A stretch of DNA of 64,000 nucleotides from Actinobacteria bacterium HGW-Actinobacteria-6. GTDB taxonomy: Bacteria > Actinomycetota > Coriobacteriia > Anaerosomatales > Anaerosomataceae. Of this stretch, positions 359 to 62,980 are shown one piece after another. The translations under genes were made by a program, and so were the position numbers. How positions within the stretch are numbered: the first letter of the stretch is position 1; the number at the start of each line of letters is the position of its first letter. The stretch covers positions 1 through 64,000 of the forward strand of contig PHEU01000008.1 of NCBI GenBank assembly GCA_002841295.1, written 5' to 3'. The notes under the pieces were generated by a model. It did no database searches, had not been told where the DNA came from, and was given only the letters and a program-made list of their open reading frames with translations.

Positions 359-2161
359 ATGACTGACCCCACACTCATACGAAACTTCTCGATCATTGCG
401 CACATCGACCACGGGAAATCGACGCTGGCCGATCGCATGCTCGAGCTGACGAACACCATCGCCGATCGCGACATGATGGAGCAGGTGCTCGACTCGATGG
501 ATATCGAGCGCGAGCGCGGCATCACCATCAAAGCGCAGGCGGTGCGTGTTTACTTCGAGGCGGCCGATGGCCTCACGTACCAGCTCAATCTCATCGATAC
601 TCCCGGGCACGTCGACTTCACGTATGAGGTGTCGCGCTCGCTTGCAGCGTGCGAAGGCGTATTGCTTGTCGTCGACGCCACGCAGGGCGTTGAGGCGCAG
701 ACAGTCGCCAACGCGCAGCTTGCGATGAACGCGCACCTGGAGATCGTCCCGATCATCAACAAGATCGATTTGCCGGCGGCCGATCCGGAGCGCGTGCGTC
801 ACGAGATCGAAGAAGGTCTCGCGATTCCTGCCGACGATGCGGTGCTCACGAGCGGCAAGACCGGACTCGGCGTGCGCGAGGCGCTCGAAGCTGTCGTCAA
901 GCACGTGCCGCATCCCGTAGGGGACCCTGACGCGCCTTTGAAGGCACTCATCTTCGACTCGTACTTCGACGCGTACCGTGGTGTGGTCGCGCTCATCCGG
1001 GTCATGGACGGCAAGGTCAGCAAAGGCATGAAGGTCCGCCTGCTTGCCACGCAGACCGTCACTGACGTCGAAGAAGTCGGCGTCCGGCGTCCTGCGAACG
1101 TCCCGGTCGACGCGCTTACCGTGGGTGAGGTCGGCTACCTGATCACGGGTCTCAAGGACCCGTCCATCATGAAGGTCGGCGACACCATCACCCTCGCCAA
1201 GCACGGTACCGAAGAGCCTCTGCCCGGCTATCGTGAAGTGAAGCCGATGGTCTACACCGGCCTCTTTCCGATCGACGGCGACCAGTACCCGGAGCTACGC
1301 GACGCACTCGACAAGCTGCAGCTGAACGACCCCGCGCTCATCTACGATCCCGAGAGCAGCCACGCGCTCGGCTTCGGATTCCGCGTCGGGTTCCTCGGCT
1401 TGTTGCACATGGAGGTCGTCAAGGAGCGTCTGGAGCGTGAGTTCGATCTGGACCTGCTCGCGACCGCGCCCTCGGTGGAGTACCACGTCTTCAAGACCAA
1501 CGGGACGAGCGAGTACATCCACTCGCCGCAGGATATGCCGGATCCCGGGACTATCGACCGTATGGAGGAGCCGTACCTCAAGGTGACGGTCCTCGTGCCC
1601 CCGGAGTACGTCGGCGCCGTCATGGAGCTTGCCGAGGGACACCGCGCCAGCTTCAAGGACATGCAGTATCTCTCCAAGACGACCGTTGAGATGCACTACG
1701 AGATGCCGCTTTCCGAACTCATCATGGACTACTTCGACCAGCTCAAGAGCCGTACTAAGGGCTACGCGAGCCTGGACTATGAATACATCGGCTACCGCGA
1801 AAGCGCGCTCGTGAAGCTCGACGTGCTGCTTGCCACCAAGATCGTGGACGCACTGAGCTTCATCGTGCACAAGGATAAGGCGTACGCCCGCGGCAAGATC
1901 CTTACCGAGAAACTTCGCGAGATCATCCCCCGACAGATGTTCGAGGTTCCGATCCAGGCGGCCATCGGCGGGCGCATCATCGCCCGCGAGACCGTCAAGG
2001 CCAAGCGCAAGGACGTTCTTGCCAAGTGCTACGGCGGCGACATCAGCCGCAAGCGCAAGCTTCTGGAGAAGCAGAAGAAGGGCAAGAAGCGCATGAAGAA
2101 CGTCGGCAACATCGAAGTCCCCCAGGAGGCCTTCATGGCTATCCTGAAGGTCGATGAGTAG
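359..2161 (+). CDS. lepA: elongation factor 4 (LepA), back-translocating translational GTPase
   Basis: LepA/EF4 acts on stalled or mistranslocated ribosomes using GTP. The ATG at 359 gives 600 aa, the usual family length; an in-frame TTG at 335 would add eight unlikely residues. Visible are the G1 loop AHIDHGKST (residues 14-22), switch [12 protein letters not shown]3 DTPGH, G4 NKID, EF-G-like domains II, III and V, and the LepA-specific lysine-rich C-terminal domain ([19 protein letters not shown]). There is no strong ribosome-binding site. The stop overlaps the hemW start by 8 nt, so the two genes are probably translationally coupled. Confidence 0.98.
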
Positions 2162-3341
2162 CCCCGGCGACACCCCAGCGCTGCCCGAGCACCTCTACGT
2201 GCACGTCCCGCTCTGCCGAACGAAGTGCGCGTATTGCGACTTCTATTCGCTCCCGCTCGCCGGAGTGACCGAGGACGTCAGTAGTATCGCCGCCTCGCTC
2301 GCAGCACAGGCGCAGGCGTGGCTGGCCCGAGATGTCCGTCCGCAACTCCTCAAGAGCCTCTACATCGGCGGGGGAACGCCCACCGTGCTCGGCCCCGAAC
2401 TTGCGATGCTCGTGGCGGTCCTCACCACGTGGTTCCCGCTCGCCCCCGGCGCCGAGGTGACCGTCGAGGCCAATCCCGAATCGCTCGACGCGTCGCTCGC
2501 AGCCGCGCTCGCCGAGGCGGGTGTCACGCGCGTGAGCCTCGGCGTGCAAAGCCTCGACGATGGTGTGCTCGCATTCCTCGAGCGTCCGCACGATGCTGCG
2601 ACCGCCCGCGCGGCCGCACACGCCGTGCGCGACGCGGGTCTCGCGCTCTCGGTCGACCTCATCTGCGGCATCCCGGGCCAGACCGCGCAGTCGTGGATCG
2701 ACACCCTGAACGGCGCGATTGCGATGCGTCCCGAGCACGTCTCGGTGTACCCGCTGGCGATCGAAGCCGGAACGCCGCTCTCGGCGGCCGTTGCCATCGG
2801 CGACGTGCCGGAGCCGGATCCCGATACCGCCGCCGACATGATGCTGCTCGCGCAGCACGTGCTGGGGCAGGCGGGTCTCGCGCGCTACGAGGTCGCCAAC
2901 TACGCGCTTCCCGGCGCCGAGTCGCGCCACAACACCGCCTACTGGACCGGTGCGCCCTACCTGGGCGTCGGCCCCGGCGCACACGGCATGCTCGACGCCG
3001 CGACTGCAGCCGCCGTCGGCTTCACGCCCGCTCGCGCTGATGACGTCGCCCGCCTGCGCTACTCGGTGGCGTGCGATCTCCGGGAAGGCCTCACTCCGAT
3101 GCCGCGCCTCGACGTCGAAGTTCTCACCGGCGAGGAGACCCGCCGGGAGGACGTCATGCTCGGCCTACGGCTCGCGCGCGGCGTTGCCGACGACGAGGCC
3201 GGAGCCGCAGGCGTCACCGGTGCACTCGAAACGCTCGAAGCCGCCGGCCTCGTGGAACTCGTCGAGAGTCGCTGGCGCACGACCGAGCGCGGCTGGCTCC
3301 TCGGCAACGAGGTGTTCTCGGCGGTGTGGGCGGGGGAGTAG
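2154..3341 (+). CDS. hemW: HemW-like radical SAM protein (haem chaperone, coproporphyrinogen oxidase-related)
   Basis: 395 aa radical SAM protein. The cluster motif C21-x3-C25-x2-C28 is followed by D-F ([10 protein letters not shown]). In HemN proper the motif continues with another Cys, so this is the HemW subfamily, which binds haem and delivers it to haemoproteins rather than oxidising coproporphyrinogen. A GGGTPT motif (residues about 69-74) and a HemN C-terminal domain follow. The ATG at 2154 overlaps lepA. A haem-handling protein directly upstream of three multihaem cytochrome genes is suggestive, but lepA-hemW is a widespread pair and the linkage may be coincidental. Confidence 0.93.
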
Positions 3342-3544: not shown

Positions 3545-6500
3545 GTGAAATGGCGCGCGTTTTCACCGCTAGTTTCGTCGATAGCCGTCCTTCTTGTCGT
3601 AATCAGCGTGTCACTGGGCTTCGCGAACGCGAAGGTCGACCTGAGCGTCCGTGATTCCAGTTCCCAGCCTCTCGTAGGAGCCGTATCGGTGATCGAGGGG
3701 AAGACTGGCTCGTCGAGCGCAATTGAGTCGGCCGCGATTCCTGACCGGGCTTCATCTGCCAGGGTATCGGGGCTCGAAAAGGATACGAGGAGCGCGCGCA
3801 CGCCAAGACCGAAAACGGTACTGCCTCCGACCGACCCCATCGATCCGTCTGTCGTGCCTCCCACTGAACCCAGCGACCCGCCAGTAGTGCCTCCCACGGA
3901 CCCGGTTGATCCGCCGGCCGAACCTCCCACCGAACCCGCTGATCCGCCTGTGCTTCCGGCGGCACCTGGTGCGATCGTGGGCGTGGCGTGCGTTTCGGCT
4001 GATATGGCCGATGTCGTTACATTCGATGCGCCGGCGGTCGGCGGTTCCGTGACATCATTCGCGTTGTTGCGCGCGGACTCCGCAGGGGGTTCATTTGTAC
4101 AGGTGGCGACGGCCACAGCGGAGTCCCGAATGTTTCGTTACTCGGTGGAGGAGCCTTCCGCAGCTGTTTACGCGGTCGTCGCGCATGGCCCGGGCGGCGA
4201 AGGACCCCGCTCTTCTCCTGTCGACAATGCGGTGGTCTCGATCGCGACGGACGTCACGTCCGGCGGAGGGACGCTCCGCTCCTCAAACGGCGAGGTCGTG
4301 CTCGCGCTCGCTCCCGGCACGTTCACTTCTACAACCACAGTCACGATCGACGAGGTAGCCGGCACGCCCGCGGGCGGCATCCTCTCGCTAGCCGGCGTGT
4401 ACAGAATCGAGCCGTCGGGGGACCTGCAGGCTCCCGCTACGTTCTCGGTGGCGTACACGCTTGCCGTGACGCATCACCAGGTCTCTGCGGCACTGTTGAA
4501 GGCCGCTTGCCTAATGACCTACGACGAGAACACGGGCCAGTGGGTGTCGGGAGCACGTGACGTCCACGCCGAAGCGGGGTACGTCACGGGTACGCTGGAC
4601 CACTTCAGCGAGTGGGTCCCCGGCACGATACAGCCGCATGGCACGAGTCCGGAGTCGGTCGACTACTGCTCCGGTGTGTGTCATGACCTGGAGACAGCGG
4701 TAGGCTCAACGCTTCGGTACGCCGCGAGGGACTCCCAGGTCTGCTACAACTGCCACGGCAATCCGGACCTCGATGCCCCACCGCTAGGCGCCAGTGGAGC
4801 GAACGTCCAGAGCTCGTTCATGGGCTCGTCAATTATCTCGAAGCACCCCGTGGTCACGGGAGGGTTGTTCTGCACGGCATGCCACAATCCGCATGCGGAT
4901 CCCGCTGCGAGTCCGGGCCTCCTGCGCGCGTATGATGCGGTCTCCGGCAAAGCAGTGACGACCGGCACGGCGTACTGCTGGACATGTCACGGTACCGTGA
5001 GCAACCGCACTATCAACGCGCTGGTTCCCGGGTACCTCACCCGAACAGGCGGTAACAAGAAGACGGGATTCAACGGGGCGCATACCGCATCGCGCGCGTC
5101 CAGCACTCGGTACGACACGGCCGAGGAGTTGCGCCAGGGGTCCACTCTCGGAACGCAGATTCTCAGCGGAGGCACTGTCGAGAACACATTCGAGCCCGTC
5201 CGACTCCCCAAAGACCCCGTCGCCGTGCCGTCTCCGCCGTTCCCGGCCGGGGCTGCCTACGCAGACAAGCCCTACGACGGAGACGCATCGAGTGGCGGAG
5301 GGGTGAACTGGACTGCTTCCACCCTGGGTGCGTCGGCGGCGAATGGCTGGTTTGGAAGCGGTACTGTGACTATCGACCTCGGAAGTGTCACCAATCTGAG
5401 CGCGTTCGAGTGTATGGGCGTGTCCACACCGGGTCGCTCCGCACACATTCTGGAGATTCAGACAAGCGATACCGGTCTAGCCGGCACCTTCGTGCCCTTG
5501 GTGAGCCAGGGGCAGCTCGGTACGGGGCTGCCGTACACCACGACGCTCACCGCATCGGCGAGTTGCCGGTACGTGCGGTTCGTGTTCTCGCGGCAGTTCG
5601 CGGCTGCGGGTGACCGTCTGGACATAGTCGAACTCTCCATCTTTGGCCCCACGCCTGGCACGTTCACCGTTCAGCCCGAAGTCGCTCGAAAGGCGACTTA
5701 CGGGAGCGGTGTTGTCAGGTGGGGCGCCACCGGGCCGGCAGCTACAGACGTCACTGTTGATGCTCGCCTGTCCACGAACAGTGGTGTCACCTGGTCCGCC
5801 TGGCAGCCGGTCACCAACGGCGGTTCGCTGATGCCGGACAAGGCCGGAAGTAGTCTCGAGTATGCCCAGATGGAGTTGAGGACGACGCTTCCAGGGTCTC
5901 CAGGGGCCACGGCGGCCCTGGACTGGATCGAGGTCGCCACGACCCGCGGGAACATAACCGGAGTGACGCCCCAATGGACGGGCGAGTCACCTTCGAATGA
6001 GTGCCAGCGCTGTCACAGCTCACATGGAAGCGAGAACTCCGGACTCGTGGCGGCCGGCAGCACAGCGGCGTGTATCAACTGCCATGGTGGCGCCTTCGGC
6101 GGTTATGCCGGAGCCGCTCAGTTCGGTGTGTCCGCACACAAGACCGTCGACTGTGCCGAGTGTCACACGTCACACGGCAATGCGACCGGATCAGGCGCCA
6201 CCTATGCGTACCTTCTGAACGACATTCCCAGGGACGCGTGTCTGGAATGCCACACGGCCGTCAAGGCAGCGTTCGACGCGAAGCAAGGAGTCGCCTCGGA
6301 GCGGGCCAAGCACGACGTCTACACTCCCGAGCAGGCCATCAGTGGCAGCCGACTTGCGTGTCGCAACTGCCACGCGACTCACAGCTCCGCCAATGGACTC
6401 GTGAATCCGGACAACCTCACTCAGGCGTACGGTGCGACGCGATTGGATCCAGCGTCGATTCCCACAGCGGAAGTTGTGATCTACCCCAGCATGGATACGA

Positions 6501-7477
6501 TCCTGGACGCCACCAACCCGTCTTTCAACTACGGACAGTCGCCCCAGGGCACGATCACCCCAACGTCCAGGGCGCTGTTCTACTTCGATCTGAGTGTGAT
6601 TCCCGCATCCGCTACCATTCAGAACGCCACACTCGTGATGTGGCCGAGCAATCCCGCCGACGTCAGCGTGGCCGACCACTACGTTGTCTATCCCATCACC
6701 GCCAGCTGGCGCGAAGGCACGGGCACGGGCACTCTCAACGACGGAGCGGTCAACGGGGCCACCTGGCTCGAGCGGGAGAACGCCCTGTCCTGGGCAGCGC
6801 CGGGCGGGGACCGCGGCGCGATCGGACCGTATGGCGTAACTGGTATCTCGCCTCGGAATATCACCGACATGGTGCAGGCCCTTCACGTGGGGCCGAACTA
6901 CGGGCTCATGGTAGCGCCCCATGACCCGGATACAGCCACCTCGTTGCCGATCTACATGGACGAGTATGCCGGCGCGAATTCGTCTAAGTACCGGCCCAGG
7001 TTGCGCGTCGTCTATCAGACAGAGCCGGGCACCAAGACGGTCCTGGACGATGAGGCGTTCTGTCTGAAGTGCCACGACAATGACCTGCCGTTCAACCTCA
7101 AGGGCATCACCGGTATCACGCGCATCAACACCGCGTGGGTGATGTACAGCCCGCACGGTGCGGTGAAGGGTATCGGTCCGGGCTACGACAACAACGACAG
7201 CGGATCACTGAAGGCCCCGTACTCATGGGGCATGGACCCATTGCCATGCATGACGTGTCACGACCCACACGGTTCACGTCTGCCATTCCACCTGCGGGAA
7301 GTCGTGAACGGACGCGACATGACGCCGGTACTCAGCAGTGGGTGGACGTCGGCGTCGGCTGCCACGGTGCCCGCATACTTCTGCGGAGCGTGCCATGTGA
7401 TTACCACGTCGCACCCGGGAAGCCTGGATTCGCCCGCAACACTCTGCGCCGGTCTGTGCCATAGTTCGGCGCACTAG
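3545..7477 (+). CDS. large secreted multihaem c-type cytochrome (13 haem motifs) with discoidin-like and DNRLRE-like modules
   Basis: 1310 aa from a GTG preceded by GAGGGTGAGG. It has an N-terminal signal peptide (hydrophobic residues about 9-27), then a Pro/Thr/Asp-rich linker (about 95-138), an Fn3-like segment (about 140-230) and a ZU5-like beta domain (about 232-365). Haem motifs start at residues 375 (CSGVCH, CX3CH), 400, 443, 478, 820, 843, 870, 899, 939, 1173, 1235, 1280 and 1301 (CAGLCH, CX3CH); the other eleven are CX2CH. Between haem groups lie a discoidin/F5-8C-like beta module (about 577-700) and a DNRLRE-like module (about 975-1158). Probably exported and wall or surface associated, moving electrons across or outside the envelope. 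No LPXTG motif or C-terminal membrane anchor was seen. Domain names are assigned by eye. Confidence 0.9.
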   Translation: MKWRAFSPLVSSIAVLLVVISVSLGFANAKVDLSVRDSSSQPLVGAVSVIEGKTGSSSAIESAAIPDRASSARVSGLEKDTRSARTPRPKTVLPPTDPIDPSVVPPTEPSDPPVVPPTDPVDPPAEPPTEPADPPVLPAAPGAIVGVACVSADMADVVTFDAPAVGGSVTSFALLRADSAGGSFVQVATATAESRMFRYSVEEPSAAVYAVVAHGPGGEGPRSSPVDNAVVSIATDVTSGGGTLRSSNGEVVLALAPGTFTSTTTVTIDEVAGTPAGGILSLAGVYRIEPSGDLQAPATFSVAYTLAVTHHQVSAALLKAACLMTYDENTGQWVSGARDVHAEAGYVTGTLDHFSEWVPGTIQPHGTSPESVDYCSGVCHDLETAVGSTLRYAARDSQVCYNCHGNPDLDAPPLGASGANVQSSFMGSSIISKHPVVTGGLFCTACHNPHADPAASPGLLRAYDAVSGKAVTTGTAYCWTCHGTVSNRTINALVPGYLTRTGGNKKTGFNGAHTASRASSTRYDTAEELRQGSTLGTQILSGGTVENTFEPVRLPKDPVAVPSPPFPAGAAYADKPYDGDASSGGGVNWTASTLGASAANGWFGSGTVTIDLGSVTNLSAFECMGVSTPGRSAHILEIQTSDTGLAGTFVPLVSQGQLGTGLPYTTTLTASASCRYVRFVFSRQFAAAGDRLDIVELSIFGPTPGTFTVQPEVARKATYGSGVVRWGATGPAATDVTVDARLSTNSGVTWSAWQPVTNGGSLMPDKAGSSLEYAQMELRTTLPGSPGATAALDWIEVATTRGNITGVTPQWTGESPSNECQRCHSSHGSENSGLVAAGSTAACINCHGGAFGGYAGAAQFGVSAHKTVDCAECHTSHGNATGSGATYAYLLNDIPRDACLECHTAVKAAFDAKQGVASERAKHDVYTPEQAISGSRLACRNCHATHSSANGLVNPDNLTQAYGATRLDPASIPTAEVVIYPSMDTILDATNPSFNYGQSPQGTITPTSRALFYFDLSVIPASATIQNATLVMWPSNPADVSVADHYVVYPITASWREGTGTGTLNDGAVNGATWLERENALSWAAPGGDRGAIGPYGVTGISPRNITDMVQALHVGPNYGLMVAPHDPDTATSLPIYMDEYAGANSSKYRPRLRVVYQTEPGTKTVLDDEAFCLKCHDNDLPFNLKGITGITRINTAWVMYSPHGAVKGIGPGYDNNDSGSLKAPYSWGMDPLPCMTCHDPHGSRLPFHLREVVNGRDMTPVLSSGWTSASAATVPAYFCGACHVITTSHPGSLDSPATLCAGLCHSSAH

Positions 7478-7648
7478 GGTAGGCATCTGCCTCGCGCAAG
7501 GGTCCGGCTGCGAAGGGCGCTAATCGCCGTCTGTGGTCAACGGGCAGCCTCGGTCGCGGTTGTCCGGTCGCTGCCGGTAGCTCGCGTCCGTTGGCTTCTC
7601 GGAAACAGGGTGTTCAGTGCGGTATGGGCAGGGGAGTAGAGTCATTTA

Positions 7649-7677
7649 TTGACGCTTTCCCACGGCGCAGTTAAGGT
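7649..7677 (+). promoter_or_regulatory. candidate promoter for the 7-haem cytochrome gene
   Basis: TTGACG (7649-7654) is separated by 17 nt from TAAGGT (7672-7677), about 50 bp before the start codon. The -35 is good and the -10 is weak. It lies in the 240-bp gap after the 13-haem cytochrome; nothing else recognisable was seen in that gap. Confidence 0.35.
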
Positions 7678-7727
7678 AATTCAGTCTGGATAATGTTCAC
7701 AGAACTTTCGCTACGGGGGTGGCGTGG

Positions 7728-8771
7728 ATGCAAGGTGGTGCGTACGCAAAGGTCGGTTTTGCGACTGCTGTGCTGCTGGTTGCATCCGTCTTTGCGGCAC
7801 CTTCCGTCTCGTTCGGATTTTCGGACCCTGGATTCACAAGTCCATACACGTGCGATCAGTGCCACTCGACAAGCGGAGCGTCTTCTTCTGACTGGGAAGG
7901 CAAGGGTCCGCATGGGCTCTACACTGCGACTACTACCAAATGCGCCGTGTGTCATTCGGTGCATCAGGCACCTGCGACCGGCGTGCTGTTACTGAGTGGA
8001 ACGACGGTCTCGGGATCGTGTCTCTCATGTCACGACGGTACGGGTGGTACGGCACCGTACAACGCGATCGAGGCGCGCGGCGGCAGCGTGGTCTCTGAAC
8101 ATTCGATCGACGCGACATCGGTGGTCCCGGGCGGATCTGTGCCGCTGTCGTCTATTCTCGGCTGCGGGGACTGTCATAGCGTGCACCGTGCCAAGGTCGT
8201 TGCACCGTTCTATCGCGATAGCGGCATTGCATTGGGCGCTCAGCAGCTAGTCGCTTCAGATTGTCTGTTGCGGAGCGATGTGAGCACCAGCAATCCTGTC
8301 GGGTACCCAGTCTATGGCGCGCAGTGGTGCGCATCGTGTCACGACCAGCGCCACTCGCAGTCGATGACGATGAATCACCCTGTAGCTGGTAGCTACTCTG
8401 TCGGTTATGGCGAGGTGACTACCACCGAAGGACTCGCTGGGAATCCTACGCGAGCATATGGTGACGGCAGTGACGGCACTTACTTCGTGGGTATGGGCCA
8501 GACGAACGCAGGCTACGTTATGGCTCCGGTTGTGGCCTCTGCAGACGGCAGGGTCGAGAATCGGCAGGACCCCCTGTGCCAGCAGTGCCACGAGGATGCA
8601 AGGAATGTCGCCTTGGCGTTCCGCGCGGACTACTCGGATCCTGCTCCGATTGCCGCTGGATACAACCCTTTGTACTTGACGTTCCCGCATCAGGGAACCG
8701 GCGAGCACCTGCTCGTTGAGCAGAAAGACGACCTCTGCCTCAACTGTCACTTGGTTGCAACGCTCCCGTAG
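7728..8771 (+). CDS. secreted seven-haem c-type cytochrome
   Basis: 347 aa from the ATG at 7728, chosen because GGGGGT at 7715-7720 is well placed for it; an in-frame GTG at 7719 would overlap that site. A signal peptide (hydrophobic residues about 9-24) precedes seven CX2CH motifs: CDQCH (Cys 42), CAVCH, CLSCH, CGDCH, CASCH, CQQCH and CLNCH. The pattern of SVH after motif 2, HDGTGG after motif 3, HEDAR after motif 6 and a C-terminal CLNCH is shared with the convergent cytochrome at 8864-9976, so the two are paralogues. Predicted extracytoplasmic electron carrier; redox partner unknown. No cytochrome maturation genes are in the window. Confidence 0.9.
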   Translation: MQGGAYAKVGFATAVLLVASVFAAPSVSFGFSDPGFTSPYTCDQCHSTSGASSSDWEGKGPHGLYTATTTKCAVCHSVHQAPATGVLLLSGTTVSGSCLSCHDGTGGTAPYNAIEARGGSVVSEHSIDATSVVPGGSVPLSSILGCGDCHSVHRAKVVAPFYRDSGIALGAQQLVASDCLLRSDVSTSNPVGYPVYGAQWCASCHDQRHSQSMTMNHPVAGSYSVGYGEVTTTEGLAGNPTRAYGDGSDGTYFVGMGQTNAGYVMAPVVASADGRVENRQDPLCQQCHEDARNVALAFRADYSDPAPIAAGYNPLYLTFPHQGTGEHLLVEQKDDLCLNCHLVATLP

Positions 8772-8863
8772 CGCTGCGCGCGGCGACGGTGTTGCAGCAG
8801 ACTGGCGTCTGAATCGCCGAGAGACCTGCGATGCACCCGCAACGATGACCCGTGGCCATCGAC

Positions 8864-9976
8864 CTACGGTAGCTGCGACGTCGGGTGACAGTTCAAGCAG
8901 AGATCGTCGTTGAATGACGTGGCTCCGGCCTCAACGAGCATCCGATAGTTCGTGGTCTCGTGCGGGAAGTTCTGGAACCGTGGGTTGCTCGACGTTTCGA
9001 CGCCATCTGGCATCGTCACCAGGAACGGTGTGACGAGCGCCTGCGTCCCGGTTGTAGATAGACTACCGAGACTACGTGCATCCTCGTGGCACTGCTGGCA
9101 GATCGGCGCGTGACCGGCCTGCTGCGGCGTTCGCGGATACGGCATCAGGTAACCCTGATTGTTGAAACCAAGCGTCTGGCTCGCGACTGTGGTTCCCGTC
9201 CATGCTCCGGCAACGTCCAGTCTGGCTACGCGGTCGTATACGAACGGCACCGAAGTCGTTGCCTTTGAGTCCGCCGGATGGTTGTGAACCGTGCTCAGCG
9301 CCGAGGAGCGACCCTTGTGACAGGCCAGGCACCAGTCAGAGCCGTACTCCGCCACTGCAGTGGTAACGCCGCCCGGGCGTTGCTTGAGCAGGCGAGACTT
9401 CACCTGCGGTACGCGAGTCGTCGAGTTCGCGATGCGATAACGGTCGCCCTGGAAGGCCGCTACCATGCTGCTGGCATGAGGGGTGTGGCAGTCCGTGCAC
9501 GTCAGCGTGCCGTTGAGTCCCCCGAGAACCATCGTTGCCGAGCCGCCCGTGGAGGCGTTTCCGCCCGGGATGACGCTTGTGGATTCAACAGAGTGATCTG
9601 CAGCCACCGTCAATCCTCGCGCTGCGATCGTGCCGTACACTCCGCCTCCGCCAGTTCCATCGTGGCATGTCTCACATGAGGCCTTGACGGTTACCCCCGC
9701 GAGCAGTTGTTGCCCGCCTGCGGCTGCGGCGTGAACCGAGTGACACCCCTTGCACTTGTAGCTGGTCGCAGTGTAGCCGCCGTGCACACCAATCGCGGAT
9801 GCGCCGTGGAAGATGCTGAAGCCGAAGGGGTTATGGCAGCGGCCGCAGTTCTCCTCGGTCATAGCTGGGTTCGGGGCCGAGGTGGTTTCGTCGTACGCGA
9901 ACGCGACTCCGGCGCCAAGCAGTACGAGTGCCATCCCCACAACGAAAGAGCAGGTGACAAGCCGGATGCGATTCAT
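8864..9976 (-). CDS. secreted seven-haem c-type cytochrome, paralogue of the gene at 7728-8771
   Basis: 370 aa from the ATG at 9976 (MNRIRLVTCSFVVGMALVLL). An upstream in-frame extension to 10102 lacks sense as a protein and passes through the ribosome-binding site. A signal peptide is followed by CGRCH, CKGCH, CETCH, CTDCH, CLACH, CQQCH and CLNCH. Shared landmarks with the convergent neighbour are the CHDGTGG segment, a (S/T)SV(I/V)PGG segment, QQCHEDAR and a terminal LCLNCH. It is convergent with that gene, leaving 92 bp, and divergent from hrcA. The Shine-Dalgarno is an uninterrupted run of 11 G. Confidence 0.9.
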   Translation of the reverse strand: MNRIRLVTCSFVVGMALVLLGAGVAFAYDETTSAPNPAMTEENCGRCHNPFGFSIFHGASAIGVHGGYTATSYKCKGCHSVHAAAAGGQQLLAGVTVKASCETCHDGTGGGGVYGTIAARGLTVAADHSVESTSVIPGGNASTGGSATMVLGGLNGTLTCTDCHTPHASSMVAAFQGDRYRIANSTTRVPQVKSRLLKQRPGGVTTAVAEYGSDWCLACHKGRSSALSTVHNHPADSKATTSVPFVYDRVARLDVAGAWTGTTVASQTLGFNNQGYLMPYPRTPQQAGHAPICQQCHEDARSLGSLSTTGTQALVTPFLVTMPDGVETSSNPRFQNFPHETTNYRMLVEAGATSFNDDLCLNCHPTSQLP

Positions 9977-9979
9977 GGT

Positions 9980-9990
9980 CCCCCCCCCCC
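9980..9990 (-). promoter_or_regulatory. 11-G homopolymer serving as ribosome-binding site
   Basis: The reverse strand has eleven consecutive G residues three bases before the ATG of the cytochrome gene at 9976. It is the only plausible Shine-Dalgarno. Tracts of this length can slip during replication, changing the spacing or strength of the site. Confidence 0.6.
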
Positions 9991-10024
9991 GAGAGACAAG
10001 GCATATTAAGCATGCGTAACACTC

Positions 10025-10051
10025 ATTATCACACGCAGACCGGAGGCGCAA
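10025..10051 (-). promoter_or_regulatory. weak candidate promoter for the reverse-strand cytochrome
   Basis: On the reverse strand TTGCGC (10051-10046) is followed after 15 nt by GATAAT (10030-10025). The -10 is close to consensus but the spacing is short. It lies in the intergenic region divergent from hrcA. Confidence 0.3.
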
Positions 10052-10105
10052 TAGAGATGCGAATCGCAGAGACTTCTGGTGGACGGCCGAGCGTGATACC
10101 ATTCT

Positions 10106-10132
10106 TTGGCACTCTCATACGCTGAGTGCCAA
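10106..10132 (+). promoter_or_regulatory. CIRCE operator (HrcA binding site)
   Basis: TTGGCACTC (10106-10114), nine bases, then GAGTGCCAA (10124-10132) form a perfect 9-9-9 inverted repeat. The consensus CIRCE is TTAGCACTC-N9-GAGTGCTAA; here both arms carry the compensating A-to-G / T-to-C change. It lies 14 bp upstream of hrcA, as expected for autoregulation of the heat-shock operon. Confidence 0.93.
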
Positions 10133-10146
10133 CGTAGGAGTCTCGT

Positions 10147-11169
10147 ATGCTGAACGAACGCCGGCGCGCTGTTCTCGCCGCACTCGTCGATGAATATGTG
10201 AGCACCACCCAGCCGGTCGGCTCCAAGGTCCTCGTGGAGCGGCATCGTTTGGGCTGTTCGCCTGCGACCGTGCGCTCAGAGCTCGCCGCGCTTGAAGAGA
10301 GCGGCTTCCTGCGCCAGCCGCACGTCTCGGCGGGGCGCGTACCCACCGACGTCGGCTATCGTGCGTTCGTCGATGACGTCCATGAGCGTATCGGTGCCCT
10401 CGGTCTTTCCGCCGAGGAAGTCGGCAGCATCCACACCGCGTACGACGCCCTCGAGCATGAGATGGCCGACGTCATGCGTGAGACCTCCGTGTTGTTGTCG
10501 CGCTTCACTAACTACGTCGCGGTCGTTGCGGCGCCTGCGCTCAGGCGTGCCCGCATCCGCCGCGTCTCGGTTGTCCCGCTTGCCGAGCGCCGCGCACTCG
10601 TGGTCGTCGTCACTGACTCCGGGCAGGTCGCGAACCGCACGCTCGACTTGCAGGTCTCGGCCACCGACATGATGCTTGCCGAGGTCGAGCGGTACCTCAC
10701 CGCGATCCTCGAGAACAAGGTGGGCGACCAGGTCGTTGGTATCCGAGACGATGCTTCGGCGGCTGGTGATGCGTTTGCGCGCGTCACGCTCCAGGTGCTC
10801 GATGAGGTCGTAGACTGTCTCAAGGAAGCCGACGAGGATCGGGTAGTCACCGGTGGTGTGGCTGCGCTTCTCGCGCAGCCGGAACTCGCCGATCCCGGCG
10901 TTGCTCGGCCGGTCGTGGCGCTTCTTGAGGACGGTCTCACGATGTTGAAGGTCCTCTCGGATGTGATGCAGACCGGTGGCGTGGCGGTGCGCATCGGGCA
11001 CGAGAATCCGGTGGATGCGCTTGGCGCGATGAGCTTCGTTGCCAGCCCGTATGGGACCAAGGATCGCACCGGTGTCATCGGTGTCATCGGGCCCACTCGC
11101 ATGAACTATGCCCGCGCGATCACCACGGTGAAGACCGTGGCCGATTCGCTTACTGACGTGCTCGGATAA
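10147..11169 (+). CDS. hrcA: heat-inducible transcription repressor HrcA
   Basis: 340 aa, normal length. HrcA represses class I heat-shock genes by binding CIRCE and is kept active by GroEL. The N-terminal winged helix (residues about 1-75) contains [13 protein letters not shown] and [20 protein letters not shown], followed by the GAF-like region and the C-terminal stretch with the motif [20 protein letters not shown]. Start ATG 10147 is preceded by GTAGGAG. The CIRCE directly upstream makes it self-repressing. dnaJ follows after 11 bp. The usual grpE and dnaK between them are absent. Confidence 0.97.
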
Positions 11170-11180
11170 GAAGGAGAACT

Positions 11181-12284
11181 GTGGCTTCCACTGACTACTA
11201 CGATGTTCTTGGCGTTGCGCGTGATGCCTCGGGCGAAGAGATCAAGAAGGCGTTTCGCAAGAAGGCCCGCGAGACGCATCCCGACGTGTCCGACGGTGAG
11301 CATGCCGAGGAGGAGTTCAAGCGCATCAACGAAGCGTACGAGGTGCTCTCGGACGACCAGAAGCGCCAGAATTACGACCAGTACGGGACAGCAGACCCGC
11401 GGCAGGGCGGCTACGGCGATTCCGGCGTTGGCTTTGGCGGCTTTGAAGACATCTTCTCGGTGTTCATGGGCGGTATGGGCGGCATGGGTCAGCAGCGCGT
11501 GCGGCTTGAGGGTCGAGACATGCGCGGGCAGACCGTCATCACCCTGCAAGAGGCCGCGAAAGGCGTCGACAAGGACGTTCCCGTCACGCGTGTAGGTCCG
11601 TGCTCAACGTGCAATGCGAGCGGAGCCGCGCCCGGCGGCAGGGTCGAGACGTGCCCGTCGTGCAACGGCTCCGGTCAGCGCAGGACGCAGCGCAGGACGA
11701 TCCTGGGCGTCATGGAGTCCATGTCGCCGTGCGAGCAGTGCTCGGCTACCGGCAAGATCGTCGATCCGCCATGCCCCACGTGTGGCGGCGAAGGCCGCAC
11801 GCGCGTGTCCGAGAGCGTTCACGTGTCGATTCCGGCCGGCATCGACGACGGCGACACCATGCGCGTGAGCGGTAAAGGCGAAGCCGGTGTTCGCGGAGCG
11901 CAGTCGGGCGACTTGCTGCTGACCGTGCGTATCGCACCGCATGAGTTCTTGCATCGCGAAGGCGATGACCTGCACGCCATGGCGGCTATCAACATCGCAC
12001 AGGCGGCTCTCGGCGGAAGCATCAAGGTGCCCGGACTCTTTGAAGATGAAGAGGTCAAGTTCAGCGCCGGCGTGCAAAGTGGTGCAACAGTGCGCCTGAG
12101 GAGTAGCGGCATGCCGAGGATGCGTGGCGGCGTGGGCGACCTCATCGTGCACTTGCGCGTTGATGTCCCGAAGAAGCTCGACAAGAAGCAGCGTGAGCTC
12201 CTGCGCCAGCTGGGCGAGTCGTTTGGTACCGGCAAGGGCGGGCCCAGCAAGCTTGAGCGCCTCAAGGATTGGCTCGGCGCATAA
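11181..12284 (+). CDS. dnaJ: type I chaperone DnaJ (Hsp40)
   Basis: 367 aa co-chaperone stimulating DnaK ATPase. The J domain (residues about 1-70) contains the essential HPD (ETHPDVSDG) and YEVLSD. A Gly/Phe-rich linker follows, then four zinc-binding repeats ([32 protein letters not shown]; the first and third deviate from CXXCXGXG) and the two beta-barrel substrate domains. The GTG start has AAGGAG in good position. It shares the CIRCE-controlled operon with hrcA. A type I DnaJ here without its DnaK neighbours suggests dnaK-grpE, perhaps with a second dnaJ, lie elsewhere. Confidence 0.96.
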
Positions 12285-12285
12285 G

Positions 12286-13041
12286 ATGGCCGAGCACCGC
12301 TTTTTCCTCGAAGGCCCGCTTGTGCCCGAGGGTGCGCTGGCACTCTCGCCGCAAGATGTGCACCACCTGCGCTCCGTGCTGCGCCTCGGCGCGGGCGACG
12401 AGATCGTCGTCGTGAGCTCGGATGGCGAGGCCGCGCTCGTGCGTCTCACCATGGTGAGTGCCGAGGGAGTGAGCGGTTCTGTCCGAGAAGCCGTTGAGGC
12501 GCCGCGCGTACCGCGTGTGTGGCTCGTGCAGGGTCTTGCCAAGGGCGAGAAGATGGACCTTGTCGTGCGCATGGTCACGGAGCTTGGCTGCGAGCGGATC
12601 GTTCCGCTCATGACGTCGCGCTCAGTCGTGCGGCTTGATCCTGCTCGCGCCGAGGCGCGCGTAGAGCGCTGGCAGCGAATCGCCGCCGGTGCTGCGAAGC
12701 AGGCGCAGCTCGTGCGTGTACCGGACGTGACTCCCGTCGTCACCATCGCGGGGCTCACCGATGCGCTTGAGGGAGCCGCACTCACGCTCGTTGCCTGGGA
12801 GGACTCCTTCGGCGCGCCGAGCATCGCCTCTGCGATCGAGGAGGCTGCACTTCCCGCCAGCGCGGCCGTCGCGATCGTTATCGGCCCGGAAGGCGGTCTC
12901 TCTGCCGAGGAAGTCACGCAGCTTCGTCATGAAGGCGCGGGTGTTGTCTCGCTCGGCGACACGATTCTGCGGACGGAGACGGCCGGTGTGGTCGCGACCG
13001 CGCTTGCACTCGCTGCCCGCGGAGGCCTCGGTGGCGTGTAG
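12286..13041 (+). CDS. rsmE: 16S rRNA (uracil-1498-N3)-methyltransferase RsmE
   Basis: 251 aa from the ATG at 12286, one base after the dnaJ stop. A longer open frame from 12124 only overlaps dnaJ out of frame. RsmE is a SPOUT methyltransferase; the knot motifs IGPEGGLSAEEV and LGDTILRTETAGVVA near the C-terminus are diagnostic, and an N-terminal PUA-like part (HRFFLEG...LSPQDVHHLRSVLR) precedes them. The order dnaJ-rsmE-mtaB matches the Bacillus heat-shock operon downstream genes, although prmA, which usually sits between dnaJ and rsmE, is missing. Confidence 0.95.
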   Translation: MAEHRFFLEGPLVPEGALALSPQDVHHLRSVLRLGAGDEIVVVSSDGEAALVRLTMVSAEGVSGSVREAVEAPRVPRVWLVQGLAKGEKMDLVVRMVTELGCERIVPLMTSRSVVRLDPARAEARVERWQRIAAGAAKQAQLVRVPDVTPVVTIAGLTDALEGAALTLVAWEDSFGAPSIASAIEEAALPASAAVAIVIGPEGGLSAEEVTQLRHEGAGVVSLGDTILRTETAGVVATALALAARGGLGGV

Positions 13042-14272
13042 TTCGCATAAGGTGGCATTTCGCACGCTCGGCTGCAAGGTCAATCAAGTCGATGCCGAGA
13101 CGATCGCCGCCGCGCTCATCGGCGACGGCGCCGTGATAGCCCCGCAAGAAGATGCCGAGATCGTCATCGTGACGACGTGCACCGTCACCGGCGAGGCCGA
13201 CCACAAAGCCCGCAAGGCCGTGCGTCACGCGCACGCGCTCCCGCAATCACCCGTGGTGCTCGTGACCGGCTGCCTCGCGGCCGTTGATGATGGCACCCTC
13301 GTATCGCTCGGCGAACGCGTCATCGTCGAGGCCGACAAGTCAGCCGTTCCCGCACGCGTTGCGGCACTGCTCGGCGAGCAGACGGACGCGTCACCGCATC
13401 CCACCACCCGCGCCGGCGAGGGTTTCCATACCCGAGCGTTCGTGAAGGTCGAAGACGGCTGCGACAACTTCTGCGAGTACTGCATCGTGCCCTACGCACG
13501 CGGCGTGCCCCGGTCGATGGCGCTTGCCTCCGTCGTGAGCGAGGTCACCGCGCTTCACGAATCAGGCGCGCATGAGGTCGTGCTCACTGGCATCAACATC
13601 GGCCGCTATGAGGACGCCGGTGTGCGCCTGCCCGGGCTCATCGAAGCCGTTGCCGCCACCGGCATCGAGCGCATCCGGCTCTCCAGCATCGAGCCCGAAG
13701 ATGTGGATGCCGCGCTCCTCTCCGCAATCAACGCTGCGCCGGCGTTCTGCGAGCACCTGCATATCCCGCTGCAGTCCGGTTCAGACCGAACCCTGGCCGA
13801 GATGGGCCGCCGCTACGACACCGCTACGTATGCCACCATCGTCGAGCGTGCCCGAGAAGCGATTCCACACCTGGCGCTTTCTGCCGACGTCATCGTTGGC
13901 TTTCCCGGCGAGACCGAAGCAGACGCAGCCGAGACGCTCGCGTTGCTTGAGCGCATCGGTTTCGCGAAGCTCCATGTCTTCCGCTACTCGGCACGCGCCG
14001 GCACTCCGGCGGCTGCTCGCACGGATCACGTGGCTCCCACAACGATCGCGGAGCGTGCCGCAGCGGTACGCGCTCTCGGTGATCGCATGCGTCTCGCGCA
14101 TCTGCGTACGCAGGTGGGTCGCGAGCTTGAGGTCCTCGTCGTGCGCCCGGGTGAAGGTGTTGCGCGCGATGGTTCCCGGGTACGCTTTGCTTCAAGCACC
14201 ACGAGCCCGGGAGAGCTCGTGGCGGCCACGGCAACAGGCATCGATGAAGCAGGATTCACGCTGACTGCGTGA
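13031..14272 (+). CDS. mtaB: tRNA t6A37 methylthiotransferase MtaB (MiaB-like radical SAM)
   Basis: About 413 aa. It converts t6A37 to ms2t6A37 in tRNA. The N-terminal UPF0004 domain carries FRTLGCKVNQVDAE, TCTVTGEAD and VTGCLA cysteines for the second cluster, followed by the radical SAM motif CDNFCEYC and a TRAM-like C-terminal tail (about 350-413). The start is uncertain: GTG 13031 has GGAGG five bases upstream and overlaps rsmE by 11 nt; GTG 13052 would remove seven residues. LGCKVNQ favours MtaB over MiaB. Confidence 0.93.
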   Translation: MACSSHKVAFRTLGCKVNQVDAETIAAALIGDGAVIAPQEDAEIVIVTTCTVTGEADHKARKAVRHAHALPQSPVVLVTGCLAAVDDGTLVSLGERVIVEADKSAVPARVAALLGEQTDASPHPTTRAGEGFHTRAFVKVEDGCDNFCEYCIVPYARGVPRSMALASVVSEVTALHESGAHEVVLTGINIGRYEDAGVRLPGLIEAVAATGIERIRLSSIEPEDVDAALLSAINAAPAFCEHLHIPLQSGSDRTLAEMGRRYDTATYATIVERAREAIPHLALSADVIVGFPGETEADAAETLALLERIGFAKLHVFRYSARAGTPAAARTDHVAPTTIAERAAAVRALGDRMRLAHLRTQVGRELEVLVVRPGEGVARDGSRVRFASSTTSPGELVAATATGIDEAGFTLTA

Positions 14273-14310
14273 TAGAATCTACTGGTCAGCCCAAGGAGGC
14301 GATTACGAGC

Positions 14311-15285
14311 GTGTCTAACCCCACCCAGGTACGCCTGGTCGTTCCACCAGAGATCAATATGGTCGATCTCCTCGGCGAGGGAGACCATCTCTTGAAGCTC
14401 ATAGAAGAGCAGTTCGAGTCGGAGATCGCTGTTCGCGGTAATGAAGTCGCCATCGTCGGCGACGTTGCCGAGGCACAGGCCGTCTCGGCAGTCTTTGGCG
14501 AACTCATCTCGCTGGTGAGCAAGGGCGAGCACCTCAATCCAGAGAGCCTTGACCGTGCGATGGACATGCTCAAGCGTGGCGAATGCAGCCCCACAAGCGT
14601 GTTCTCCGACGTTGTGCTGACGCATCGTGGTCAGAGTATCCGCCCCAAGACCGCTGGTCAGAAGGCGTACGTCGATGCGATCCGCAAGAACACCGTCACC
14701 TTCGGTATCGGCCCGGCCGGCACCGGCAAGACGTATCTCGCGATGGCAATGGCGGTTGATGCGCTGCGCAAGAAGGAAGTCGGCCGCATCATACTGACCC
14801 GTCCGGCGGTTGAGGCGGGGGAGAAGCTCGGGTTCTTGCCGGGCACGCTCTATGAGAAGGTCGACCCCTATCTGCGCCCGCTCTACGACGCGCTTTTCGA
14901 CATGATGGATATCGAGCAATCCACGATGCTCACCGAGAAAGGCGTCATCGAAGTCGCCCCGCTCGCGTTCATGCGCGGGCGCACGCTCAATGACAGCTTC
15001 GTCATTCTCGATGAGGCACAGAACACCACTCCCGAGCAGATGAAGATGTTCCTCACCCGCCTCGGCTTCGGCAGCAAGATGGTCGTGACCGGTGACGTGA
15101 CACAGACCGACCTCATCGGTGGGATGTCCGGCCTCATGCAGGTCCGGGACATTCTCGGCGGAGTGAACGACGTGTCGTTCGTAGAACTCTCTGCCCGCGA
15201 TGTCGTCAGGCATCGTCTCGTCCAGCGCATCGTGACCGCGTACAGCGAGTTCGAGGGGGCGAAGGCGGCCGCCCGCGATGCCTAG
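14311..15285 (+). CDS. phoH: PhoH-like ATPase
   Basis: 324 aa from GTG 14311, preceded by AAGGAGG at 14293-14299; an in-frame ATG at 14269 overlaps mtaB and lacks such a site. The Walker A GPAGTGKT is at about residues 134-141, Walker B is VILDEAQNTTPEQMKMFLTR, and an N-terminal KH-like region (about 1-105) is present, as in bacterial PhoH/YbeZ linked to RNA metabolism. The conserved linkage phoH - pgpH - ybeY fits YbeZ-YbeY cooperation in ribosome quality control. It overlaps the next gene by 8 nt. Confidence 0.93.
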   Translation: MSNPTQVRLVVPPEINMVDLLGEGDHLLKLIEEQFESEIAVRGNEVAIVGDVAEAQAVSAVFGELISLVSKGEHLNPESLDRAMDMLKRGECSPTSVFSDVVLTHRGQSIRPKTAGQKAYVDAIRKNTVTFGIGPAGTGKTYLAMAMAVDALRKKEVGRIILTRPAVEAGEKLGFLPGTLYEKVDPYLRPLYDALFDMMDIEQSTMLTEKGVIEVAPLAFMRGRTLNDSFVILDEAQNTTPEQMKMFLTRLGFGSKMVVTGDVTQTDLIGGMSGLMQVRDILGGVNDVSFVELSARDVVRHRLVQRIVTAYSEFEGAKAAARDA

Positions 15286-45176: not shown

Positions 45177-46991
45177 GTGGAGCTGCGCGATTACCTCAAC
45201 GTTATCCGGGCACGCAAGTGGGTCATCATCCAGGCCGTTGTTATCGTCACCATCACGGCGATAGTCGTAAGCCTGTTGCAGCCTGCCGTGTTCGAGGGTC
45301 AGGCAAAGGTCCTCATCTCAGATCGCGACACCGGCGCCGCCATCCTGGGCACCGCCATCTCCGATCTCACCAGCCAGCCAGAGCGCGGCCTGCAAACGCA
45401 GGTCCAGCTCATGCAGCTGCGTCCGCTTGCCGAGAACACCATCCGCAAGCTCGGACTCAAAGAGAAGCCGGAAGACCTCCTCAAGAACATCACCGTCTCC
45501 GCCGTTGGACAGACGAACATCGTGACCATCACGACGCGTGCCGGCGACTCCCGCATGGCGAGCATGATCGCCAACACCATGGCCGATGAGTTCGTTGCCT
45601 GGAGCCGGGAGTACAAGCGTGAGAGCATCAAGGCCGCAGCCGATGAGGTCGACGCGCGCCTTGAGCAGTCAAAGCAGGAGCTTCTTGAACTTGGGCGCCG
45701 CATTTCAGCTCAGGGCAAGAGCGACGAGCTCTCCGCCGAGCTGGCGATCGCTACCGGCAGCTACACCACGCTTGCGGGCCAGCTAGAAGAGCTCCGGATC
45801 CAGGAGCAGCTTGAGGTCGGCTCCGGCCGCGTGGTGAGCCCCGCTGTTGTGACCGACGAGAAGGTTGAGCCCAGCCCGAAGCGTAACGGTGCACTTGGCC
45901 TGGCTGTTGGCCTCATTTTCGGTCTGGGCATGGCGTTCTTCTACGAGTATCTCGACAACACCATCAAGTCCTCTGAGGAAGCCGAGAAGGTGTACGGCGC
46001 TCCGGTACTGGGCCTGATTCCTGCCGAGAAGTACGACAAGGACGAGAAGCGCAGACTCACGCTTATCACGCACTCGGGTACACCTGCTGCCGAGGCGTAC
46101 CGCGTACTGCGCAACAGCCTCGACTTCATCAACTTTGAGCACAACATCAAGACGCTGCTGGTAACGAGCGCAGCGCCTGCCGAGGGTAAATCCACCGTAG
46201 CTGCAAACCTGGCCGCAGGCCTTGCGCAGGCCGGCAAGAAGGTTGTGCTGCTCTCATGCGACTTCAGGCGTCCGACCACCCAGCAATTCTTCCAAGTGAA
46301 CACGATGATCGGACTCTCAGACGTGCTCACCGGCGCGAACTCGCTCAAGAGCGCGCTGCAGCGCTCCGGTGAACTTGCGAACCTGCTCGTCCTCACCAGC
46401 GGCAAGCTACCGCCGAACCCGAGCGAACTCCTGGGTTCCGATAAGATGCACGCGCTTATCAAGGAGCTTGAGGAGTGGGCCGACTGGGTTATCGTGGACA
46501 GCCCACCGCTTCTTGCTGTTGCAGACGGTGCCGCGGTTGCCCGTTGGGTCGACGGCGTACTCATCGTGACCAAGGGCGGTATGTCTACCCGGGATGCTGG
46601 CAAGAAGGCCACTGAGATGCTTGGGCAAGTGGGCGCTCGCATCATCGGTACGGTCGTGTGGGGTCTTGAGAGCACTCCCGGCGGCGGTGGCTACGGCTAC
46701 TACGGCGGCAAGGGGTATAAGGGCTACTACTACTACGCCGACTACTACAGCAACGTCCCGGCCGATGGCCGATCAGCGAAGCATGGCAAGGTTGCAGCCA
46801 TTCCTTCCGCGCAGACCCAACAGCATATCTACATCCCGCCGACGAGTCCCGGGCGTAAGTTCGCTGAGGCTGTGGGCAAGGTGCTGACCGGCGTGCTGGC
46901 GGCGCTTGTGGTGATCGTCATCGTGCTCCTGGTGGTGTACTTCCTAGACCAGGCGATGGGCTGGGGGATCATTACCAGTGCGCTAGGCTGA
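45177..46991 (+). CDS. polysaccharide co-polymerase / BY-type tyrosine kinase (Wzz-Wzc fusion) with an extra C-terminal membrane helix
   Basis: 604 aa. The Wzz domain is bracketed by TM1 (about 15-36) and TM2 (about 238-258). The cytoplasmic kinase has Walker A APAEGKST (about 329-336), Walker A' VVLLSCDFRRP and Walker B WVIVDSPP. A Tyr-rich cluster at about 505-527 is the autophosphorylation region. Unusually a hydrophobic helix follows at about 568-592, placing the C-terminus back at the membrane. It controls polymer length and export in Wzy-dependent systems. GTG start. Confidence 0.92.
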   Translation: MELRDYLNVIRARKWVIIQAVVIVTITAIVVSLLQPAVFEGQAKVLISDRDTGAAILGTAISDLTSQPERGLQTQVQLMQLRPLAENTIRKLGLKEKPEDLLKNITVSAVGQTNIVTITTRAGDSRMASMIANTMADEFVAWSREYKRESIKAAADEVDARLEQSKQELLELGRRISAQGKSDELSAELAIATGSYTTLAGQLEELRIQEQLEVGSGRVVSPAVVTDEKVEPSPKRNGALGLAVGLIFGLGMAFFYEYLDNTIKSSEEAEKVYGAPVLGLIPAEKYDKDEKRRLTLITHSGTPAAEAYRVLRNSLDFINFEHNIKTLLVTSAAPAEGKSTVAANLAAGLAQAGKKVVLLSCDFRRPTTQQFFQVNTMIGLSDVLTGANSLKSALQRSGELANLLVLTSGKLPPNPSELLGSDKMHALIKELEEWADWVIVDSPPLLAVADGAAVARWVDGVLIVTKGGMSTRDAGKKATEMLGQVGARIIGTVVWGLESTPGGGGYGYYGGKGYKGYYYYADYYSNVPADGRSAKHGKVAAIPSAQTQQHIYIPPTSPGRKFAEAVGKVLTGVLAALVVIVIVLLVVYFLDQAMGWGIITSALG

Positions 46992-61360: not shown

Positions 61361-61824
61361 GAATCCAATCCGTGCGATTGAACAACCGCAAGCGGGAGGT
61401 CGTGATCAGCACCCCGCGTGGCGAGTTCGCATACCCGTATGCCCGCCTTGATCCCGAACCCACGATTGACGACCCGATCGTTGAGTTCTTCATCGACGAA
61501 GAACTTGCGGGCATGGCGGTCACCTACGTTCTTGCGTCAGGGCGCGACGGGTTCGTCCACATGGAAATGGCGTTCGACTACAACCGGGAGCCCGCGTATA
61601 TGCGCGACATCCTACTGCACCGACTGACACTGGATGCGCAGAGCAGATTCACAGCGAGCGGCCTGTCGAAGCGAGAGGTGGCTAGACGCCTCAGGACTTC
61701 ACCGGCTCAGCTGTATCGGCTCCTTGACCAGACGAACTACGACAAGTCTGTGGACGGGATGCTCGAACTCCTGAGCGTTCTTGGGTGTGATGTGGAGTTC
61801 ACGGTGTCCGAGCGCTCGGCGTAG
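61357..61824 (+). CDS. HTH protein paired with DUF4160 (putative antitoxin/autorepressor)
   Basis: 155 aa from GTG 61357 (GTGA overlap). The N-terminal half is a beta-rich domain ([28 protein letters not shown]) related in look to DUF2442 partners. The C-terminal half (about 98-150) is a helix-turn-helix: [36 protein letters not shown]. It probably represses its own operon through the palindrome at 61146. A toxin-antitoxin role is inferred from layout only. Confidence 0.75.
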
Positions 61825-61930
61825 GATTTGTTCTCGAGCCCTCGTGCGCGCTGGAGCTGCTTCTCCACGAACTTGGAGTGAGCCCGTCTGCTACTCTAGG
61901 AGGTACCAGATACCGTCTCCGGAGGCTCCA

Positions 61931-62980
61931 ATGTCTCGCATCGCACTCATCACCGGCATCACCGGCCAGGACGGCTCTTACCTGGCTGAACTCCTTCTCG
62001 ACAAGGGGTATGAGGTGCACGGCATCATCCGTCGCGCCTCTACCTTCAACACCGACCGCATCGATCATCTCTATCGCGACCCGCATGAGTCGGGGGCGCG
62101 TATGTTCCTGCACTACGGCGACCTCACCGACGGCACCGGCCTGCGTCGCATTCTGGAGAAGGTACACCCGGATGAGGTCTACAACCTCGCTGCACAGTCG
62201 CACGTGAAGGTCTCGTTCGATATGCCTGAGTACACAGCAGACGTGGTTGCCACCGGCACGTTGCGGCTGCTCGATGCCGTGCGTGACTACATGCTCATCT
62301 CCGGCAATCAGGTCCGGTTCTATCAGGCCGGATCCTCTGAGATGTATGGCGCGGCTCCTGCCCCTCAGGGCCCGGACACGCCGTTTTATCCCCGCAGCCC
62401 GTATGCTGCTTCCAAAGTCGCTGCGTACTGGTACTGCGTGAACTACCGCGAGGCGTATGGGATGTTCATCGCCAACGGCATCCTGTTCAACCACGAGTCA
62501 GAAGAGCGCGGCGAGACGTTCGTCACCCGCAAGATCACACGCGCCGTTGGGCGCATCAAGCACGGACTGCAAGACAAGCTCTACCTCGGCAACATGGACG
62601 CCCAGCGGGACTGGGGCTATGCGCCTGACTATGTAGAGGCCATGTGGATGATGCTGCAGCAAGACGAGCCCGATGACTACGTCGTCGCCACAGGAGAGGC
62701 GTATTCGGTGCGACAGTTCCTGGAGCTTGCCTTCAGCATGGGGGGCATGGACTGGAAGCAGTTCGTCCAGATAGACCCGCGCTATTTCCGGCCGACTGAG
62801 GTCGATTATCTGCTCGGTGATGCGAGTGCCACGCGCGAGAAGCTTGGGTGGGCGCCGAAGGTCGGCTTTGAGGAGCTCGTCCAGCGCATGGTGGATCACG
62901 ACATGGAGCTTGCCGCACAGGAGAAGACCTTGCGCGATGCCGGTCATAGTGTAGGGCTCAGGGGGCTCTCGGATGCTTAG
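61931..62980 (+). CDS. gmd: GDP-mannose 4,6-dehydratase
   Basis: 349 aa from ATG 61931 with GGAGG five bases upstream; the frame from 61781 overlaps the HTH gene. NADP-binding [29 protein letters not shown] and catalytic YAASK are present. It makes GDP-4-dehydro-6-deoxymannose, the precursor of GDP-fucose and GDP-rhamnose. A degenerate copy of residues about 28-145 lies at 57485-57843. It overlaps fcl by 8 nt. Confidence 0.96.

Follow-up and report, generated by a model that had tools for sequence, protein, structure and literature searches.

The open reading frame at 3545..7477 on the forward strand of the window (the whole 64,000-nucleotide stretch of DNA analysed here) has a GTG start and codes for a 13-haem modular cytochrome of 1310 amino acids, a gene call that is supported by homologues. 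We give an even chance to the reading in which this protein would be a secreted, extracellular electron conduit whose beta modules keep it in wall glycan or exopolysaccharide. Most of that confidence belongs to the words "extracellular electron conduit", the preference for the cell's own glycan over an outside polymer, or over a spacer role for the modules, being a weak one. How the secreted cytochromes of Gram-positive bacteria stay at the cell and face their acceptors is poorly understood, and haem groups interleaved with modules of glycan-binding type would provide a concrete, testable answer to the problem of retention.

Eleven CX2CH motifs (residues 400, 443 and 478; 820, 843, 870, 899 and 939; 1173, 1235 and 1280) and two CX3CH motifs, which are the first (residue 375) and the last (residue 1301) haem sites, were counted in the protein, grouped 4, 5, 4 and leaving long haem-free stretches at residues 482-820 and 943-1173. 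The same numbers, grouping and haem-free stretches had been claimed in an earlier, sequence-only reading of this DNA. Shuffled versions of the protein contained a mean of 0.01 CX2CH motifs and a maximum of one, and haem group 2 of the window copy was matched by Pfam PF09699 (Paired_CXXCH) with an E-value of 9.3e-25. Judged by motifs well above chance in an exported protein, the product is a multihaem c-type cytochrome.

An alignment of the five relatives revealed 4, 5 and 4 conserved non-motif histidines in the three haem groups, for 4, 5 and 4 motifs. These candidate ligands are H365, H434, H450 and H513 in haem group 1 (4631..5083, forward strand), H827, H865, H877, H923 and H946 in haem group 2 (5954..6424, forward strand) and H1204, H1242, H1249 and H1290 in haem group 3 (7022..7474, forward strand); H1290 is unaligned in the distant genome G036 and group 1, with the exception of H513, is covered by three sequences. 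Histidines 214, 311, 341, 634, 1045, 1114, 1126 and 1310 vary, and His 310 and His 353 of the ZU5-like domain are conserved. The presence of one conserved candidate ligand for every haem implies that all 13 would be bis-His electron-transfer haems, leaving no catalytic site open. At the first haem site most relatives have CX3CH and two have CX5CH (CSDGGICH), and at the last G007 and G036 have CX2CH; since the length of the loop varies while the C...CH core persists in all sequences compared, both CX3CH positions look like true haem sites. CX3CH has been treated as a haem motif elsewhere (PMC10734462), and we infer that haem is attached at each of the 13 sites.

The modules follow one another on the forward strand in the order signal peptide, linker, Fn3 domain, ZU5-like domain, haem group 1, F5/8 type C module, Asp-box-like beta module, haem group 2, DNRLRE domain and haem group 3. 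A predicted signal peptide (residues 1-29, 3545..3631, cleaved between GFANA and K) and a linker that is Pro-rich at residues 91-140 (3632..3964) open the protein, as the sequence-only reading had described. The Fn3 domain (residues 141-230, 3965..4234) was assigned from a profile matching solved Fn3 proteins (3mpc, 1.8e-6). The ZU5-like domain (residues 231-362, 4235..4630) is below significance for PF00791 in the window copy and was assigned from the four of twelve homologues that match this model, the best at 4e-6. The F5/8 type C (discoidin) module (residues 576-705, 5270..5659) gave no match to PF00754 at E 1 in the window copy alone, but three of five homologues match that model (best 2.2e-9) and a profile of residues 560-710 matches the F5/8-type domain of solved sialidases (6.7e-8), CBM32 and lactadherin; by homologues and profile, rather than by the window copy alone, it is a well-supported family feature. 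It is followed by a beta module with the Asp-box-like motif STNSGVTW (residues 706-803, 5660..5953), the profile of which weakly matches Asp-box stretches of sialidases (0.0022). The DNRLRE domain (residues 984-1155, 6494..7009) was matched by NCBIfam NF033679 in the window copy itself (E 6.5e-13, 49.1 bits against a cut-off of 34) and in five of five homologues at E<1. PF06848, the DNRLRE model proposed by the sequence-only reading, stayed below threshold in the window copy (E 0.3 against 6.5e-13) and was dropped in favour of NF033679.

The two beta modules which that reading had placed at about residues 577-700 and 975-1158 are thus where the F5/8 C and DNRLRE profiles match; among the domain searches that it had suggested, DNRLRE and multihaem models were matched through NF033679 and PF09699, and PF06848 and the F5/8 C model failed in the window copy. 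Neither the profile of the DNRLRE module nor, directly, the whole 1310-aa protein had a match in the PDB, and structure predictions of residues 138-545 and 540-1310 from two-sequence alignments had mean pLDDT values of 34.0 and 31.8.

The possibility that a sequencing or assembly error had joined two separate genes, raised in the sequence-only reading, is ruled out by two full-length relatives with the identical module order. Genome G017 (same genus) has a complete 1321-aa frame and G043, from a different family of the order, a complete 1577-aa frame, both with 11 CX2CH and 2 CX3CH motifs of which the CX3CH are again first and last. Partial copies that keep the C-terminal part are present in G007 and in the more distant G036, which brings the beta-haem-DNRLRE arrangement to five of the 69 genomes of the order (the window genome, G017, G043, G007 and G036), a scarcity that counts against the conduit reading. 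The combination is not confined to the order, because G650 and G685, from elsewhere in the phylum, have frames of 14 and 12 motifs in which a DNRLRE-like match, though a weaker one, falls between haem groups. The other DNRLRE carriers of the order whose loci were opened showed no haem motif in the stretch fetched; those at loci L068-L097 are mostly large frames (many of 1000-2600 aa), some of them RHS-like by eye.

Other multihaem frames were seen in passing. Two, in actinobacterial relatives, are giants, L139:1627-15714 (G008:C2) with 4696 aa and 61 CX2CH and L138:1094-13447 (G060:C41), which contains a masked stretch, with 4118 aa and 75 CX2CH, against 86 in the largest ANME cytochrome (PMC9012536). 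In the window genome a long multihaem paralog (L049, G000:C66) is divided into two overlapping frames, 7312-10902 and 10808-13852; its counterpart in G017 (L050) is a single frame of 2301 aa, and a frameshift, either in the assembly or in the gene itself, is the probable cause of the split.

Apart from a marginal window at residue 142, the only long hydrophobic stretch of the 13-haem cytochrome is its N terminus, with the A-x-A site. Motif and hydropathy scans of the 1310-aa protein found no LPXTG and no C-terminal helix or hydrophobic segment, no lipobox was present in the first 60 residues, and no S-layer domain was matched in the window copy by Pfam; these export and anchor calls come from simple hydropathy rather than a dedicated predictor. 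The protein is likely to end up free on the outer side of the membrane, in what is presumed to be a Gram-positive cell. With no membrane, lipid or sortase anchor, its retention would need non-covalent binding, for which the binding modules are plausible agents. The genome contains a ResB-type maturation gene and many further multihaem open reading frames. The window also holds an exopolysaccharide region, with two components of polysaccharide synthesis, a Wzc-like tyrosine kinase (45177-46988) and a GDP-mannose 4,6-dehydratase (61781-62977).

The gene lies beside two seven-haem cytochrome genes, 7hA (7719..8771, forward strand) and 7hB (8864..10102, reverse strand), both assigned by their motifs and by neighbourhood comparison; the likelier start of 7hB is an internal Met at residue 43, ahead of a hydrophobic segment. 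On the other side lies a gene (2154..3341, forward strand) that we take to be hemW, part of a lepA-hemW-hrcA-dnaJ backbone that is conserved in the family and that has cytochromes in or beside it. With MHC13 denoting the 13-haem gene, the order is hemW-MHC13-7hA-7hB-hrcA in the window, lepA-MHC13-hemW-7hA-7hB-hrcA in G017 and 7hA-long cytochrome-lepA in G025, G004, G021 and G009. G007 carries them on separate contigs, 7hA-long cytochrome-lepA-hemW and MHC13-hrcA, and G018 has 7hB alone between hemW and hrcA. Many relatives have no listed cytochrome in the stretch fetched around the backbone; in G026 (L098), with the closest hemW (86%), the 4.6 kb from hemW to hrcA (10413-15039 after reversal) likewise contain none. 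A 7hA-type gene accompanies cytochromes sharing the N-terminal part of the window protein in seven genomes (G000, G017, G025, G004, G021, G009 and G007), which suggests that 7hA may be their electron donor.

That N-terminal part, the N-unit (residues 138-512: Fn3, ZU5-like domain and haem group 1), is common to longer cytochromes that differ elsewhere: their match to the window protein breaks off at residues 511-526, and only a weak match returns in haem group 3, with the modules in between not shared. Identity to the N-unit of the window copy is 77% in G017, 55%, 54% and 52% in the long forms of G025, G004 and G021, and 39% in G043; the G043 N-unit is 79% identical to that of its own tandem neighbour, which has another C-unit. 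A tree of the N-unit rejects the window copy, G017 and G043, all with the F5/8-DNRLRE C-unit, as a single clade (p-AU 8.6e-8). By identities and tree, then, the two units have different histories. The claim of exchange draws on two things: where the tree puts G043 with its neighbour, and the long forms, which have the N-unit and, more weakly, haem group 3 in common with the window protein. Part of this signal could also come from gene conversion within the tandem pair of G043. G017 is 52% identical to the window copy in the C-unit against 77% in the N-unit, and third-codon-position differences between them (0.49 and 0.56) approach saturation in each half. An N-unit that simply evolves more slowly fits equally well, and a recent exchange of N-units between these genomes is not claimed. 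This exchange, together with the Fn3, ZU5-like and Asp-box-like modules, had been overlooked by the earlier reading.

Based on these observations, we propose that the protein would be exported, its signal peptide cleaved, and haem attached at all 13 motifs, a second His being available for every one of them. The constant N-unit would take electrons from the adjacent 7hA, and the exchangeable C-unit (F5/8, Asp-box-like beta module, five haems, DNRLRE, four haems) would pass them outward, and its F5/8 and DNRLRE modules would keep the protein in place in the glycan of the wall or in exopolysaccharide that the cell itself makes. In a Gram-positive and, by the genus label it shares with G017, presumably Anaerosomatales-like (OPB41) host, the cytochrome would thus act as a stationary relay towards external acceptors, for example Fe(III). 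Electron path, glycan binding and acceptor are all putative, and so is tunnelling distance between the three haem groups, which the conduit reading assumes and the predicted models (mean pLDDT 34 and 32) do not support. Cultured Anaerosomatales are Gram-positive, have 17-18 multihaem cytochromes and include one obligate Fe(III) reducer; Anaerosoma tenue has many multihaem cytochromes yet is unable to reduce Fe(III) (PMC9686372), and gene content is therefore no proof of Fe(III) as the acceptor. More tentatively still, and in our view rather less likely than not, the constant N-unit may dock to the seven-haem partner while recombination swaps C-units with other binding modules, retargeting extracellular electron flow. 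If true, the lineage would retarget its electron outflow with the inner chain unchanged, and the constant/variable pattern would be a handle on the evolution of electron targets.

Two other readings, each with something under one chance in four, concern what the beta modules do. In the slightly better one they would be ligand-free structural spacers, as domains I and III, with their Greek-key fold, are in MtrC/MtrF, allowing haem groups 1-3 to stack. MtrC and MtrF alternate beta and haem domains, and the beta-haem-beta-haem-beta-haem order of the window protein parallels this alternation; long relatives moreover have a significant match to domains II/IV of MtrC/MtrF (PF22113). However, the modules belong to binding-type families (F5/8, DNRLRE) and not to the MtrC split barrel, and, without other anchors, something must retain the protein if it is located at the surface.

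The modules might instead bind a target outside the cell (a humic-type polymer, a foreign glycan or a mineral) and so direct the haems towards an acceptor there. The C-unit does vary more (52% identity to G017 against 77% for the N-unit), as expected with varying targets, and members of both families are found in enzymes whose binding target is foreign polysaccharide (PMC9971899). Against this, with third positions near saturation in both halves, selection for a change of target is unmeasurable. Mineral binding, moreover, is not known as a property of the F5/8 or DNRLRE family. By analogy polysaccharide is the more likely ligand, because the known ligands of CBM32 and of CBM96-like DNRLRE families are glycans; the DNRLRE family includes alginate-binding CBM96 (PMC9971899). 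Of the surface protein pictured by the sequence-only reading, with binding modules pressing haems against a polymer or mineral, the secreted cytochrome and both module types (by profile) stand and retention is plausible, and mineral binding by the beta modules is left with no support. That the protein is a terminal reductase with a catalytic haem, whether like OcwA/OmhA or of octahaem type, is very unlikely: Gram-positive metal reducers do have secreted multihaem reductases (PMC7829351), but the conserved ligand candidates equal the haems in number and Pfam, NCBIfam and PDB searches gave no match to these families or to any solved cytochrome.

Counterparts to this architecture can be found among several known systems. 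Cytochromes of the CFE_2239/OcwA/OmhA/SmhB type are likewise multihaem proteins that Gram-positive metal reducers secrete, and they have homologues reported in the same order; in the passages compared, no F5/8 or DNRLRE module is mentioned for them (PMC7829351, PMC9686372). DNRLRE-bearing RHS-like or wall-associated proteins and CBM96 share the DNRLRE family and are without a haem motif in the stretches fetched. MtrC, MtrF and OmcA resemble the window protein in their alternating beta and haem domains, and PF22113 is found in its long relatives; Pfam gave no PF22113 match in the window copy itself, which differs from OmcA and MtrC in having 13 haems as 4+5+4 rather than 10 as 5+5, and in lacking a lipobox. 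ANME MHC types A-C are, like the window protein, large secreted multihaem cytochromes with haem-free domains (PMC9012536); compared by description, they differ in being archaeal and in having other beta modules, and types A and B also in their S-layer domains and C-terminal membrane helices. Within the part of the literature searched, no open-licence paper was found that joins DNRLRE with a cytochrome or discoidin with a multiheme cytochrome. The nearest published idea found is that of ANME MHC-C, the pectin-lyase-like domain of which has been tentatively read as recognising a partner's cell wall (Chadwick et al. 2022, PMC9012536). The 13-haem cytochrome belongs among the known modular surface multihaem cytochromes, as a variant form.
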